A stretch of DNA of 64,000 nucleotides from Anaerolineales bacterium (GTDB taxonomy: Bacteria; Chloroflexota; Anaerolineae; Anaerolineales; Villigracilaceae), in contig JAFGMV010000063.1 in NCBI GenBank assembly GCA_016927315.1, positions 1 to 64,000 of the forward strand, written 5' to 3'. The translations under genes were made by a program, and so were the position numbers. Within the stretch, counting starts at the first letter, position 1. Each line of letters begins with the position of its first letter. The notes under the pieces were generated by a model, which made no database searches, was not told the origin of the DNA, and saw only the letters and a program-made list of their open reading frames with translations. Below, in pieces: positions 1,950 to 38,515 of the stretch.

Positions 1950-2444
1950 ATGGACGCATTGGAAGCGATCCGCAAGAGAAGGAGCGTACGGGAATATACG
2001 GGTGAGGCTATCCCCCGCGCAGACCTGGAAACGATCGTGGATGCCGGACGGCTGGCCGCCACCGGCAGCAACCAGCAGCCCTGGGAGTTCATCGTCATCA
2101 CCGAACAGGCCATGATCCAGCAGCTCAAGGCGGCCGCCCAATGGATGGATCAGGCCGGGGCGATCATCGCCCTGGTGATGGACCCTTCTTCCCGCTGGTG
2201 GGTCGAGGACGGCGCCGCGGCGGTCGAGAACATGCTGATCGCCAGCACGGCCCTGGGATACGGATCCTGCTGGCTGGAAGGCTATACCCTGCCGAGGGAA
2301 GCCGAGTTCAAGAAATTGCTGGGCATCCCGGAAGGGAAGCGGCTGCTGACCCTGGTCCCGGTCGGGGTCCCGGTGGGCTGGCCGGACAAGGAGAAGAAAT
2401 CTCTGAAAGAGGTGCTGCATTGGGAGAAGTACGGCGGGTTGTAG
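1950..2444 (+). CDS. Nitroreductase-family flavoprotein
   Basis: 164 aa, at the short end for the family (about 165-200). The N-terminal FMN-binding signature RKRRSVREY is at about 8-16, SNQQPWEF at 40-47 and the second flavin segment AAAVENMLIASTALGYGSCW near 90-110. These proteins use FMN and NAD(P)H to reduce nitro compounds, quinones or flavins; the natural substrate cannot be read from sequence. ATG is chosen because GGAGG stands 9 nt upstream. A short putative gene follows on the same strand. Confidence 0.92.
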   Translation: MDALEAIRKRRSVREYTGEAIPRADLETIVDAGRLAATGSNQQPWEFIVITEQAMIQQLKAAAQWMDQAGAIIALVMDPSSRWWVEDGAAAVENMLIASTALGYGSCWLEGYTLPREAEFKKLLGIPEGKRLLTLVPVGVPVGWPDKEKKSLKEVLHWEKYGGL

Positions 2445-2497
2445 TGGGCTACGGGCGCCCATTCGGGCACACGCGCCTTGTCCTGGCAGGGTAGAGG

Positions 2498-2713
2498 ATG
2501 CCAACCAGACAGCAGAGGCGACCTGGCAGGCAGGCTCTGCACTTCCTGGATGAAGATGGTATGCTGGCCTGTAACCCGCGTGACCGGGAAGCCGCACACC
2601 GGGCGGAGATGGAGGGGATTGCCACAGAAGTCCCTGCGGCCGTGACCTGTAAGAAATGCCGGGCTGTGATCAGGAGTCGCAGGGGCGTAAGACCTGTCTG
2701 GAAAAACGAGTGA
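2498..2713 (+). CDS. Small hypothetical protein with a CxxC motif
   Basis: 71 aa, unrecognised. The central part (FLDEDGMLACNPRDREAAHR, then AEMEGIATEVPAAVTCKKC) reads like genuine protein: a conserved-looking Cys-Asn-Pro-Arg-Asp block and a CKKC pair near residue 57, possibly metal- or zinc-binding. The first ten residues are basic and low in information, so the true start may be internal or further upstream. It lies 53 nt after the nitroreductase stop and is closed by the strong hairpin at 2725. Confidence 0.4.
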   Translation: MPTRQQRRPGRQALHFLDEDGMLACNPRDREAAHRAEMEGIATEVPAAVTCKKCRAVIRSRRGVRPVWKNE

Positions 2714-2724
2714 TGCAGGTAATT

Positions 2725-2760
2725 ATCCGCAGGGACGCGGCTTGCCGCGTCCCTGCGGAT
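2725..2760. terminator. 16-bp perfect hairpin between convergent genes
   Basis: ATCCGCAGGGACGCGG (2725-2740), loop CTTG, CCGCGTCCCTGCGGAT (2745-2760). It sits between a plus-strand small gene and the minus-strand gene ending at 2767. It lacks a long T-run, so it may be a bidirectional terminator or a REP-like palindrome. Its core matches the hairpin at 1853. Confidence 0.65.
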
Positions 2761-2766
2761 GGTTTA

Positions 2767-4383
2767 TTACCAGCAAACGCAGTTCTTGCTGTCGACGCCC
2801 TGCGGGCAGTCATTGGAGGTCAGTGAGCAGGTACCGCCGCCGTCACGGCCAATATCAGGGCAGTCGCCCAATTGGACCGCGAATTCTACATCGAGCTGCG
2901 GGTAGGGCTGCGAACAATACGAACTGTCTGCAAGGGCAAAATAATTATAGACGTAGCCAACCGGACAGAAAGAATACGATTCAGCCGGTTCTTGCGGCTC
3001 AGTGTAGTTCGCACCACAGCATCCCAGGGCGGCGTCATACGCATATCCTTCCGGACAGCTCTGGGAGGAGGCAATACTGATACAGGCCTCTTCTTCGGCA
3101 GAATAATAGGCGCCGCTCGGACAACTGGCATCCGTTCCCGTGGGCGGGCCGGTATATTCACAGGCGTCGCCGGCCAGGGTATAGCCGGCATCGCAGGTGG
3201 GGAAAATCAAATCATCCCCGGGCAGGTCACAACTTGTGGAGACGGTTACCGGCACAGTCGAGTTTTCAGGGCCGGAACAGACCAATCCTCCAACAGCATA
3301 ATCATGTTCACAATCACCAACAGTAAACCCAAATCCAGCATACACATCTCCCAAACGTACGTTTGCGCCGCCAGTACCGGTAGACCGGTCTATACAGTAA
3401 CTGGTAACATCAATCGTTGGCACAGGCGGTTCGCAGGCAGGGACCTCGTCACTGTCCGTTGGCAGGGGGACATAGGCATTGGTCTGGCAGAAGGGTGCAA
3501 AGCCCTGTGGATCGTGGACCACGCAGCGAAAACCAAGGTCTGCGCGGTAGGCATCCGGCTGTAGTTTGAAGCGGTTGGCTGCGGGCAGGAAATCTGCGCC
3601 GCTGTTGTAGGCGCTGGAACGTACGACGCGCTGGTCGCCGCTTTCCGGGCCGCGCGGGTTATCGACGTCAGGGATATAATCCGGGCTGTACCAGTCGCCG
3701 ACCCATTCAAAGACATTCCCGGCCATATCGAAGACGCCGTACGGGCTGGCGCCCGCGGGAAACTCGTTCACGCGGGTTGTGCCCTGCCGGCAGCCAGCGA
3801 TGTTTGCCAGGTCACAGGAAGGTTCACTCTCTCCCCAGGGATACAGGTTCCCGTTCTCTCCCCGGGCGGCTTTTTCCCATTCGGCATCGGTTGGCAGGCG
3901 GGCATCCATCCACTGGCAGTAGGCCTGGGCCTGTCCCCAGGTTACACCGATGACGGGGAAGTCTTTCAAATCGGGGCGATTGACAGCGGGGTAAGGGGGT
4001 TCCTGGGCAGGGGAGTCGCAGGCGCCGCTCTCCAAGCACTGGCGGTACATGCCGTTGGTAACGTTGTACTTATAGATCCAGTACCCGCTCAGCGAGACGG
4101 TGTATTCCGGAACGTTTTCCAGCCCACCCATGATGGCATCTCCCGGGGGGACGAATACCAGGGTGCTTTGATCATACCATTTCATCTCGGCGCCTGCCTG
4201 TGGTTCCGGCAGGTCAAGCGCTTGAAGGGAGCCGCCTGTAACCGGAATTGCCTCTTCTGTCACCGCCGGTGCTTCCTGAGACCGGGCTTGCTCTGGCGCC
4301 GCAGTTGGGGCTGCGGCATTACAGGCGGCCAGCAGGATCGGGAGGATGGATACAGCCCCTAGATAGTTTCTAACATACTTCAT
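2767..4383 (-). CDS. Lipoprotein with formylglycine-generating-enzyme (SUMF1) domain and Cys-rich tail
   Basis: 538 aa. The signal peptide ends in LLAAC (Cys21), then an Ala/Pro/Glu linker. Residues about 60-305 form an FGE-sulfatase/SUMF1 domain: 'TNGMYRQCLES', 'PVIGVTWGQAQAYCQWM', 'RLPTDAEWEKAARG', 'YPWGE', 'DMAGNVFEWVGDW' and the terminal 'GFRCV'. Most bacterial lipoproteins of this class lack sulfatase-activating chemistry and act as carbohydrate- or signal-associated surface proteins, so activity is not assumed. Residues about 310-538 are rich in regularly spaced cysteines (CPEGY, CPVGY type), suggesting small disulfide-knotted repeats outside the cell. ATG 4383 is preferred because GGAGG lies 5 nt upstream; a GTG directly before it is possible. 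Confidence 0.85.
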   Translation of the reverse strand: MKYVRNYLGAVSILPILLAACNAAAPTAAPEQARSQEAPAVTEEAIPVTGGSLQALDLPEPQAGAEMKWYDQSTLVFVPPGDAIMGGLENVPEYTVSLSGYWIYKYNVTNGMYRQCLESGACDSPAQEPPYPAVNRPDLKDFPVIGVTWGQAQAYCQWMDARLPTDAEWEKAARGENGNLYPWGESEPSCDLANIAGCRQGTTRVNEFPAGASPYGVFDMAGNVFEWVGDWYSPDYIPDVDNPRGPESGDQRVVRSSAYNSGADFLPAANRFKLQPDAYRADLGFRCVVHDPQGFAPFCQTNAYVPLPTDSDEVPACEPPVPTIDVTSYCIDRSTGTGGANVRLGDVYAGFGFTVGDCEHDYAVGGLVCSGPENSTVPVTVSTSCDLPGDDLIFPTCDAGYTLAGDACEYTGPPTGTDASCPSGAYYSAEEEACISIASSQSCPEGYAYDAALGCCGANYTEPQEPAESYSFCPVGYVYNYFALADSSYCSQPYPQLDVEFAVQLGDCPDIGRDGGGTCSLTSNDCPQGVDSKNCVCW

Positions 4384-24204: not shown

Positions 24205-24602
24205 GGTGGAGATGGCGGGAATCGAACCCGCGTCCGAAAGATTCAACCTGCGGAAATCTACGAGCGTAGCCAGGCGGTGCTCGTCACCGGCAGATCCCCG
24301 TCTGGCACAGAAGCCTGCCGGCCAGTCACTCGGACCCGAGAGCCCTCTTTCACATGCTTAGTAACGTGGGCATGCGGCACTCCGTCTTTCTGACGCCCGC
24401 ATCTGCCACCGGACGGAGTTCGGGGCAGGCGGACGGGTCTCACGTTGTGGAGACCGACCACTATGTCACGCCTTAGGCGGCGAGGGGCATAGCAGCGTAG
24501 GAAGTGCGGTTGGCACTTAATGTTTTGCGCTGAGTTAGCGAGTTCGGCGCCTCTCGGCTCGCATTCCGGGGCCAGCCTCTCCCGTCGAAGCCTGTCATCC
24601 CC
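24205..24602 (-). ncRNA. ssrA: tmRNA
   Basis: About 398 nt. The 5' end GGGGATGACAGGCTTCGACG (24602 downward) has the tmRNA hallmark TTCGACGGG; the 3' end carries the T-arm GGACGCGGGTTCGATTCCC and pairs CATCTCC with 5' GGGGATG as acceptor stem. The genome encodes only ACC then T after the stem, so the last A of CCA must be added. The resume codon is GCC at 24514-24512 (context TTAAGTGCC) and the tag frame ends with TAA at 24475-24473. A T7 run directly after the gene should terminate transcription. It rescues ribosomes stalled on broken mRNAs. Confidence 0.97.
24473..24514 (-). other. tmRNA proteolysis-tag reading frame
   Basis: Read from GCC, the tag is ANRTSYAAMPLAA followed by TAA. The C-terminal LAA is the usual protease signal (ClpXP type). 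The tag is three residues longer than the E. coli one. Confidence 0.85.
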
Positions 24603-24677
24603 ATGGTTGGGGGTCTTCCCCAGCTGGAAGTCCATTATATCACAGGCAGTTTCCAGCCGTTATTTGGATTTTGAAGC

Positions 24678-24811
24678 AGGAGCACAAAAAAACGCTATAG
24701 AATCACCAGATCCGAACCTCCCGGAGGGTTTCTATTCGACCCTGTGCCGGGCAGATCAACCTTCGGGACGCTGCGCCGAGGATGCCATCTAAAACCAAAC
24801 CTTGTGCTCCT
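24678..24811. mobile_element. MITE-like element, copy 1
   Basis: Terminal inverted repeat AGGAGCACAA (24678-24687) / TTGTGCTCCT (24802-24811). The 92-bp core 24695-24786 aligns without gaps to 35755-35846, about 78 of 92 bases identical by hand. It has no coding capacity and no obvious target duplication, so it seems the older copy. It lies in the 350-bp spacer between tmRNA and the signalling operon. Confidence 0.65.
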
Positions 24812-35412: not shown

Positions 35413-35739
35413 GCGGCAGGTATTCTATCGATCACAACACAGGGGCTGCGAATTGCTGAGTTGCTTTCCTGAAGGCTATTCTATTCGGGCAGGGCAAGCG
35501 CAGTTACTGTATGCCCAAATTGCCGCTAGAAGCTTGTTTTTCCCGTGGTAAAGTCTTCCTAAGCCGTCCATCCTGCACCAGGTACTTTTCCCTCATCCCA
35601 ATCATGGCGCCTGATGTCAGGATGACTTCCCCTCTCCCGGTGGGAGATGGCCGGGTGAGGGCTTTTTACCACAAGAGGATCATTTTTGCTCGAAAACGAC
35701 CAGATCATCGAGTTTAGATGCGATTGCTCTATCTAGTTG

Positions 35740-35883
35740 GGGTGCACTAAAAATCTGTAGAATCACAAGATCTGAACGTCCCGAAGGGTTTTTATCAAAC
35801 CCTCTAACGGGCAGATCAACCTTCGGGATGCTGCGCTGAGGATGCCAGCACTGTAATAAAATTCCCAACATTTTAGTGCACCC
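35740..35883. mobile_element. MITE-like element, copy 2, with target duplication
   Basis: Terminal inverted repeats GGGTGCACTAAAA (35740-35752) and TTTTAGTGCACCC (35871-35883), 13 bp perfect. Flanked by direct repeats ATCTAGTTG at 35731-35739 and 35884-35892. The 92-bp core matches copy 1 at 24695-24786. Inside, TCCCGAAGGGTT and AACCTTCGGGA can form a stem. It ends 40 bp before the -10 of the next gene. Confidence 0.8.
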
Positions 35884-35922
35884 ATCTAGTTGGGTTGGTT
35901 CAAGTTTTTCCTTGCTATCCAG

Positions 35923-35928
35923 TATAAT
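35923..35928 (+). promoter_or_regulatory. -10 box of the YbhN-like gene
   Basis: TATAAT ending 10 nt before the ATG at 35939; the mRNA would have a leader of only a few nucleotides. No consensus -35. Confidence 0.5.
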
Positions 35929-35938
35929 CACGGTCATT

Positions 35939-36928
35939 ATGAAGAAATTCATTGTTTCCCTGATATTCTTCTTAGGGATTACACTTATTATTCTGAGTTT
36001 TTCTGAACTTAAAGAGACCGTCCAGATCCTCCAGGGCGGTAATTTCTGGTTTGTTGGATTGGCTTTTGGGGTGGAGTTCATCTGGGTGTTTTTCACGGGG
36101 CTTACGTATCGTTCGATATATAAATTATTAGACATGAAAGAGAGTGGTTGGCATTTGATGCTGGTGGCTGTGGCGGCTAACTTTGTTAATAATGTCACTC
36201 CGGCAGCAGGTATGGGGGGCACCGCCCTTTATATCCAGAACGGTGTCAGGCGTGGTCATCCGCCTGGTAAGGTTACAGCAGCCAGCGCCCTGTATGTTCT
36301 GCTGGATTTCAGCAGTTTTTTGTGTGTGCTGGCCCTGGGTCTGGTCGTTTTGATCCGGCGAAATGATATCCAGATCGGGGAAGTGATCGCATCGCTGATC
36401 CTGCTGACAATTACGTCAACCTTGGCTTTCCTGATGATCCTGGGGATACACTCATCCCAAGACCTGGGTCGTGTGCTGGCTTGGGCGGCACGCGGGATTA
36501 ACCATATTGTGCGTCCAATTATCAAGCGTGAGTATCTCAGCAAAGAGCGGGCCCATGAGTTTGCAGCAGAGATTGCAGATGGGTTGACCGCATTGAGAGT
36601 GAACCGCCAGAATCTATTCAAGCCGCTGGTCTTTGCGTTGATCGGCAAGGGGCTTCTGATCAGCATCCTGACCTTGATCTTTTTAGGGTTCAGTATTCCC
36701 TTTTCGAGCGGGACCATTGTCGGCGGTTTCTCGATTGGATATCTGTTCATGATTGTTTCCCCAACGCCTTCAGGAGTTGGATTTATGGAGGGGGCGCTGG
36801 TTCTGGCGCTCACTTCTTTGAGGGTTAAATACAGCAATGCTGTGGTGGTCATGCTGGTTTACAGAGCGATCACCTTCTGGATGCCAATTGGGCTGGGAGC
36901 CCCGGCATTCCGGTATTTGCAGAAGTAA
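35939..36928 (+). CDS. Flippase-like YbhN/UPF0104 membrane protein
   Basis: 329 aa, about eight membrane helices. The family pattern of lysylphosphatidylglycerol synthetase TM regions is visible: 'FVNNVTPAAGMGGTALYI', 'ALYVLLDFSSFL', 'SPTPSGVGFMEGALVLALTSL' and 'YRAITFWMPIGLG'. There is no aminoacyl-transferase domain, so a lipid flippase-like or glycolipid transport role is likelier than lipid aminoacylation. The start at 35939 begins the first helix. Confidence 0.85.
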   Translation: MKKFIVSLIFFLGITLIILSFSELKETVQILQGGNFWFVGLAFGVEFIWVFFTGLTYRSIYKLLDMKESGWHLMLVAVAANFVNNVTPAAGMGGTALYIQNGVRRGHPPGKVTAASALYVLLDFSSFLCVLALGLVVLIRRNDIQIGEVIASLILLTITSTLAFLMILGIHSSQDLGRVLAWAARGINHIVRPIIKREYLSKERAHEFAAEIADGLTALRVNRQNLFKPLVFALIGKGLLISILTLIFLGFSIPFSSGTIVGGFSIGYLFMIVSPTPSGVGFMEGALVLALTSLRVKYSNAVVVMLVYRAITFWMPIGLGAPAFRYLQK

Positions 36929-37353: not shown

Positions 37354-37396
37354 TTGACAGGGGAGCCTTTATTGTTATATAATGCAACCGGTTGCA
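37354..37396 (+). promoter_or_regulatory. Promoter and operator of the LacI-family regulator gene
   Basis: Consensus TTGACA (37354-37359), 18-nt spacer, TATAAT (37378-37383), and directly on it the 14-bp palindrome TGCAACCGGTTGCA (37383-37396). LacI-family proteins bind such CG-centred palindromes, so the gene should repress itself. The same palindrome recurs at 38443 and 38502. Confidence 0.88.
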
Positions 37397-37412
37397 CAGA
37401 CAAAGGTAAAAT

Positions 37413-38423
37413 ATGAACAAAACGCAGGTTCAAACCATTGCAGACATTGCTCGTCTGGCTGGAGTTTCCAAGTCAACTGTATCTCGCGCCTTGAATGACA
37501 GTCCATTGATCGGTGATGAGACCAAAGTGCGTATCCGCCAGATCGCCAAGGACAACAATTTCCAGATCAATGTTCCTGCGCGGCGGTTGAGCATGAAGAA
37601 AAGCAGCACAATTGCATTTGTAACCCATGCTTTTCACAAGGACTTTTCGGTTGCTGACCTTTTTACGCTTGAAATCCTGAGTGGCATTACCAGCACACTC
37701 TACCAGAATCGATATGACCTGTTGATGGCAAACGTCGATCCATTCGATACAGAATGGCCGTATCAGTATCTCAGTACTGGCCGTGCAGACGGATTTATCC
37801 TGATGACTTCCACGCGTAAGCAGCTCCATATCCGGACCCTGGTTGAAATGGAGGCGCCATTTATTGCCTGGGGTGTGCCCAACCCGAAGTACAACTATTG
37901 CACTGTCACCGGGGATAACTTCAATGGCGGTCGTCTGGCAACCGAGCATCTGCTTGGGATCGGGCGAAAGCGGATCGCCTTCATGGGAGGGCCGGCAATG
38001 GAATTGGAAGTTCAACATCGTTATGATGGTTATGAACATGCCCTGCGGGAAGCAGGTTTCGATCCGGATCCCCATCTGGTCTTGTATGGAGAATTTTGTT
38101 CGGAATCAGGTACTGCTTTGATGAACCAGTTTCTGGACCAGGCATCCGACCTGGATGCGGTTTTTGCTAATAGCGACCTGATGGCGATTGCAGCCATGAA
38201 AATCTTGCAATCCAGGGGAAGGAGAATCCCGGACGATGTGGCTGTTGTGGGGTATGATAACCTGTCCATTACTGAGGAGAGCCATCCACCCTTGACTACT
38301 GTCAGCCAGAATATTCGCACCTCTGGAATAATGCTGGCCAAGAACCTGCTGCAATACCTGGAGACAGGTGTGGTAATCAATGTATCTGTTCCGGTGGATT
38401 TGGTGATCCGGGAATCAGCATGA
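37413..38423 (+). CDS. LacI-family transcriptional regulator
   Basis: 336 aa. Helix-turn-helix and hinge at the N-terminus (TIADIARLAGVSKSTVSRAL, then 'NNFQINVPARRLS'), then a periplasmic-binding-protein-like sensor domain: 'FNGGRLATEHLLGIGRKRIAFMGG', 'LDAVFANSDLMAIAAMKILQSRGRRIPDDVAVVGYDN', 'PLTTVSQN'. The effector is probably a sugar or small carbonyl/lactone compound. It sits 17 nt behind its own operator and just before two more operators that control the following cluster. Confidence 0.95.
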   Translation: MNKTQVQTIADIARLAGVSKSTVSRALNDSPLIGDETKVRIRQIAKDNNFQINVPARRLSMKKSSTIAFVTHAFHKDFSVADLFTLEILSGITSTLYQNRYDLLMANVDPFDTEWPYQYLSTGRADGFILMTSTRKQLHIRTLVEMEAPFIAWGVPNPKYNYCTVTGDNFNGGRLATEHLLGIGRKRIAFMGGPAMELEVQHRYDGYEHALREAGFDPDPHLVLYGEFCSESGTALMNQFLDQASDLDAVFANSDLMAIAAMKILQSRGRRIPDDVAVVGYDNLSITEESHPPLTTVSQNIRTSGIMLAKNLLQYLETGVVINVSVPVDLVIRESA

Positions 38424-38515
38424 TATATTTTTTCAATGATTTTGCAACCGGTTGCAGCAGGATTGTACTTAGATGGATCAATATATTTTTTTCAATGATT
38501 TTGCAACCGGTTGCG
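38421..38515 (+). promoter_or_regulatory. Duplicated control segment with two LacI operators
   Basis: Two near-identical copies of ATATATTTTTTCAATGATTT followed by TGCAACCGGTTGC: operators at 38443-38456 (perfect palindrome) and 38502-38515 (last base G instead of A), centres 59 bp apart, about 5.6 helical turns. The first copy begins inside the regulator stop codon. The second ends 32 nt before the ParB-fold gene. TATATT in each copy could be a -10; no -35 was resolved. Confidence 0.8.

Follow-up and report, generated by a model that had tools for sequence, protein, structure and literature searches.

A MITE family with ISKra4-type ends at a fixed distance upstream of predicted promoters in an Anaerolineales genome

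TnGBS and ISLre2 elements insert 15–17 bp upstream of the −35 box of sigma-A promoters, and several ISs of the ISKra4 group do likewise, with the −35 box of a sigma-A promoter at 13–17 bp (PMC3942029). Direct repeats (DRs) of 8 or 9 bp are produced by the p-MULT elements, inverted repeats (IRs) in the ISKra4 group measure 18–39 bp, and elements with near-perfect inverted repeats occur in both orientations (PMC3942029). Contact between the transposase and the RNA polymerase initiation complex was proposed by the authors of that study (PMC3942029), a precedent which we met only after our own spacing analysis. No description of MITEs for the ISKra4 group was found in the open-access papers searched, with 0 occurrences of the term in the text of PMC3942029.

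The element described here lies in a stretch of 64,000 nucleotides from an Anaerolineales bacterium (the window; features in Table 1). Bacterial MITEs and REP/ERIC-type repeats are short, palindromic, geneless and intergenic sequences present in many copies; the window MITE, in contrast to these repeats in general, can be assigned to a parent family and to a precise target relative to promoters. We consider it highly probable (roughly 0.86) that this MITE, which has no gene of its own, belongs to the ISKra4 group (prokaryotic Mutator-like DDE transposases) and was inserted at a fixed distance upstream of housekeeping promoters by a transposase acting in trans. An ISKra4-type transposase would recognise the ~22-bp terminal repeats in trans and integrate the element by a staggered cut of 8–9 bp, about 15 bp upstream of the −35 box (38–39 bp upstream of the −10), with housekeeping promoters targeted probably via recognition of promoter-bound RNA polymerase. 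With ends that repeat each other almost perfectly, the element could insert in either orientation, and the window copy would represent one recent insertion upstream of a YbhN-like gene, which left the core promoter intact. The data below show the element, its duplication, its copy number, the matching ends on an ISKra4 IS and the fixed promoter spacing; both cross-mobilisation and the role of RNA polymerase as a guide are what we infer from them.

Comparison with the ISKra4 group (p-MULT 4; ISKra2/4/5/6 and others) shows that the MITE shares its DRs of 8 or 9 bp, TIRs of ~22 bp (within the 18–39 bp range of the group) which start with G and have a conserved terminal residue, and the use of both orientations when TIRs are near-perfect. 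Both also lie at a fixed distance upstream of sigma-A promoters, predicted ones in the case of the MITE, where a −10 at 38–39 bp is equivalent to a −35 at about 15 bp. Furthermore, the outer ends of the MITE are found on an IS (locus L064) which encodes an ISKra4-family transposase. Unlike the ISKra4 ISs, the MITE is 144 bp long, lacks a transposase and has a hairpin core. TnGBS and ISLre2 (p-MULT 3) show the same promoter-upstream insertion, but differ from the MITE in belonging to another transposase lineage, in mostly oriented insertion and in being autonomous ISs or conjugative elements. The element thus defines a new MITE family, of a kind already known, which has kept the target preference of its parent; what is new is that a non-autonomous family shows the known ISKra4 behaviour, with about 40 sites in a single genome.

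Table 1. Coordinates of the MITE copies, their component parts and the adjacent genes and predicted promoters in the window
Feature	Position	Strand	Remarks
tmRNA (ssrA) gene	24205..24602	-	Tag ANRTSYAAMPLAA; ARAGORN; downstream of the predicted promoter at 24634
TATAAT, predicted tmRNA promoter	24634..24639	-	38 bp from end of second MITE copy
Second, decayed MITE copy	24678..24811	+	82.6% identity over aligned part; absent from the preliminary description
Left target duplication ATCTAGTTG	35731..35739	+	9 bp; sequence reading
Left TIR GGGTGCACTAAAA	35740..35752	+	Imperfect extension to 35761, consensus GGGTGCACTAAAANNYTGTAGA
MITE, non-autonomous, ISKra4-type ends	35740..35883	+	144 bp
Core hairpin	35777..35830	+	Element positions 38-91
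Hairpin left arm CGTCCCGAAGG	35777-35787		Followed by 32-nt interior
Hairpin right arm CCTTCGGGATG	35820-35830		Window copy; consensus CCTTCGGGACG
Right TIR GGGTGCACTAAAA	35871..35883	-	TTTTAGTGCACCC on + strand
Right target duplication ATCTAGTTG	35884..35892	+	Sequence reading
TATAAT, predicted -10 of YbhN-like gene	35923..35928	+	Starts 39 bp past element end
YbhN-like / LPG_synthase_TM gene	35939..36928	+	329 aa from this start; Pfam PF03706, E=9e-26

A preliminary description of the window had recognised a MITE with intact ends, 13-bp perfect terminal inverted repeats and a 9-bp target duplication. Direct reading of duplication, element and duplication bears out a clean MITE insertion, and the 13-bp perfect ends proved to be the outer part of longer, imperfect TIRs, since the end consensus from the copy alignment is the same 22-bp sequence on both sides, imperfect past 13 bp. 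The small size, TIRs, target duplication, many dispersed copies and absence of a transposase gene are those of a MITE, and with no transposase ORF in its 144 bp the element is not an autonomous IS. A coding peptide in the core was considered and rejected: the consensus has one frame open over ~40 codons, but this frame is broken in most copies, and variability by codon position is not gene-like. Reading frames vary from copy to copy, with no codon-position signal.

The internal arms (TCCCGAAGGGTT / AACCTTCGGGA), for which a fold in RNA had also been suggested, are present and the single-stranded element folds far better than shuffled sequences (z about −6). We do not favour an RNA role for the hairpin, as covariation among copies was found neither for the hairpin arms nor for the TIRs, and as transcription is predicted to start downstream of the element. 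Rfam gave nothing at gathering score, the low-score matches being chance or generic hairpins. The strong fold, and the occurrence of the core hairpin outside this MITE, would suit a non-mobile RNA or protein-binding repeat of the REP/ERIC kind; we regard this as scarcely credible for a sequence with target duplications, TIRs common to an IS and no covariation.

Searches of the 3.88-Mb host genome gave 42 matches, corresponding to about 39 copies of the element at 73–96% identity. The terminal 13-mer GGGTGCACTAAAA has no further exact match within the 64-kb window and occurs eight times per strand genome-wide, while the reversed control pattern occurs 0 times. At ≥95% identity, seven insertions count as young, comprising five whole copies and two pairs of contig ends, each bridged by a copy whose duplications match (C130/C24, TTTATTATA; C55/C81, ATCTGCTC), and the remaining, older copies show 73–86% identity. 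Readable target duplications are mostly 8–9 bp, with one copy (L005) reading as 10 bp. A 959-bp pair of TIR-like sequences on contig C32 was rejected as an IS, as host genes lie between the ends.

Of 37 gene-facing flanks in the host genome, 17 have a −10 hexamer (TATAAT-like) 38–39 bp out from the end of the element, versus 0.6% of random gene-facing intergenic points (n = 776) at the same offset. Counting all flanks, a TATAAT-like hexamer stands at offset 38 or 39 in 20/59, versus 0.67 per offset elsewhere, and a stricter threshold leaves 18/59 versus 0.48 expected (P about 2e-22), although this test reuses the data in which the spacing had first been seen. Around hexamers at this spacing, T(−5) and G(−2) recur as they do at other promoters of the genome, and a TTGAC-like −35, where visible, starts at offset 15; the promoters are predictions from sequence, in a genome whose −35 boxes are weak. 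In roughly half of the old copies no −10 can be recognised where one would be expected. The position of the MITE in front of predicted promoters is not accidental.

The copies are intergenic and none was found overlapping a predicted gene. Based on gene calls from a simple, purpose-made codon model, divergent regions hold 12 of 27 classifiable copies (length-weighted expectation 12.7%) and convergent regions hold none of the 27 (expectation 13.2%). The lack of copies in genes and in convergent regions is what would be expected if elements inserted at random and harmful copies were then purged, with survivors only upstream of promoters. Purging predicts a broad range of harmless distances, however, whereas the observed peak is 2 bp wide at 38–39 with background on either side, and we consider this explanation very improbable.

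The sharp spacing, also retained in old copies, and the strong conserved hairpin in the core could alternatively reflect a mobile regulatory module, inserted near-randomly upstream of genes, of which well-spaced copies were retained for a benefit to expression. Against this, six of the seven newest insertions (≥95% identical) are already spaced, with the −10 at 38–40, either end may face the promoter (right end in 15, left end in 11), the promoter-side TIR is no better conserved than the far TIR (17 old copies, Wilcoxon P = 0.30) and there is no covariation; moreover, known enzymology accounts for the spacing without selection (PMC3942029). Retention of a regulatory module is therefore very unlikely, and targeted insertion is preferred because young copies are spaced, the promoter-side end is no better conserved and covariation is absent.

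Targeted insertion at a set distance would explain why the window MITE stands right before a promoter. Its placement upstream of the promoter of the YbhN-like gene, as previously noted, was correct, with a predicted −10 at offset 39. The start codon of this gene (35939) follows about 10 nt after the −10 hexamer, a short distance which suggests that the predicted mRNA is leaderless or nearly so.

The spacing recurs in other genomes. Flanks of the same end in seven other genomes and in a further one found later (L171) carried a −10 at 36–41 in 11 of 23 cases (1.3 expected, P about 1e-7), these flanks not all being independent as one element gave both ends. The L171 insertion, found after the spacing prediction had been fixed in writing and the only new insertion which that test yielded, has TATAAT at exactly 38. 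In elements with unlike ends the predicted promoter lies at the GGGTGCAC end, whereas with the symmetric host MITE it may lie at either. No such promoter spacing was seen for a MITE family whose ends are of another sequence (GGGTGTGTTTCA).

Scanning GTDB contigs for the 22-bp end gave 12 hits, of which ten lie in MAGs of Anaerolineae or Chloroflexi, and several were MITEs with 8–9 bp duplications. One hit, L064 (positions 2149-3656), is a 1508-bp IS with a transposase (P0001) read as 466 aa, which belongs to the ISKra4 family (NF033572, E=1.4e-71); ISLre2 was a weak second match (E=9e-21), below its cut-off. The IS ends read GGGTGCACTAAAA...TGTAGA, and the part in common with the MITE is the outer 22-bp consensus at one end, the other L064 end being GGGAGCACTCAAAG. 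The preliminary description had proposed a search for an IS with the same ends and 9-bp duplications. The ends were found, on a full ISKra4-family IS, and the duplications in part: those of 8–9 bp are present on related MITEs with the same ends and not clear on L064, the sole autonomous copy, which also has no clear promoter at its edge. Other genomes from the family of the host contain related ISKra4 ISs with the same end layout, GTGTGCACGCAAAGGTTGTCAG. Searching 150 relative genomes with the MITE sequence gave core-hairpin matches only, and viral contigs gave no TIR match.

The partner transposase had been noted as absent from the window; this was correct, and an intact ISKra4 transposase gene is absent from the whole host assembly (92.7% complete) as well. 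We therefore infer the mobilising enzyme from another genome; that of the host may have been lost, be unassembled or lie in a gap. The only candidate for an autonomous partner in the host genome, an ISKra4-like fragment without these ends (G000:C48:1100-1486, L179), was rejected. This fragment, which scores 81 bits, below the family cut-off, adjoins another transposase-like remnant and is the only trace of the ISKra4 family in the assembly.

Promoter-upstream placement of such copies would mean that a geneless derivative can keep the target choice of its parent transposase family, and dozens of promoters in one genome, including that predicted for tmRNA, have this element in an identical position. 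As these MITEs are numerous, small and datable, they lend themselves to the questions of which promoter feature the transposase reads and whether insertion just upstream alters promoter output. Copies could furthermore be used for promoter mapping in uncultured Anaerolineae.

The core hairpin has a distribution of its own. Its consensus, CGTCCCGAAGG-N32-CCTTCGGGACG, occupies positions 38–91 of the MITE, and the two arms, 30–36 bp apart, were detected in 15 of 400 Chloroflexota genomes, all of the host's family (15 of 25 sampled), with up to 73 copies per genome, very diverse interiors and near-constant spacing. Up to 79 exact arm pairs per genome were counted once shorter interiors were allowed, and one genome from another family of the same order also has the hairpin, which is otherwise nearly missing from the phylum. 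Elements whose ends are unrelated (GGGTGTGTTTCA, TTCGGGATAAG, GTATCTTCTCAATAA and others) carry the hairpin, which is also found on its own, in some cases next to terminator-like T-tracts (loci outside the window: L092-L111, L125-L133, L180-L199). A DNA-uptake-like single word was rejected, since the arms are nearly always inverted pairs rather than singles. The hairpin might be functional cargo, a lineage-specific 54-bp module with 11-bp arms acquired separately by several transposon families, which we consider unlikely; if true, and combined with promoter targeting, a protein-binding or insulating element would be delivered at a fixed position just upstream of many promoters.

Two further observations were made alongside this analysis. 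A separate MITE family of about 110 bp, with the TIR GGGTGTGTTTCA(AATGA/TTTCA)GTTGAA, is present in relatives of the host and has 8–9 bp duplications in several copies (loci L099-L105, L109, L084 and L073). Within the window, three copies of a palindromic site, TGCAACCGGTTGCA, were found at 37368-38514 around a LacI-type regulator gene (37413-38423), and these look like putative operators of that regulator.
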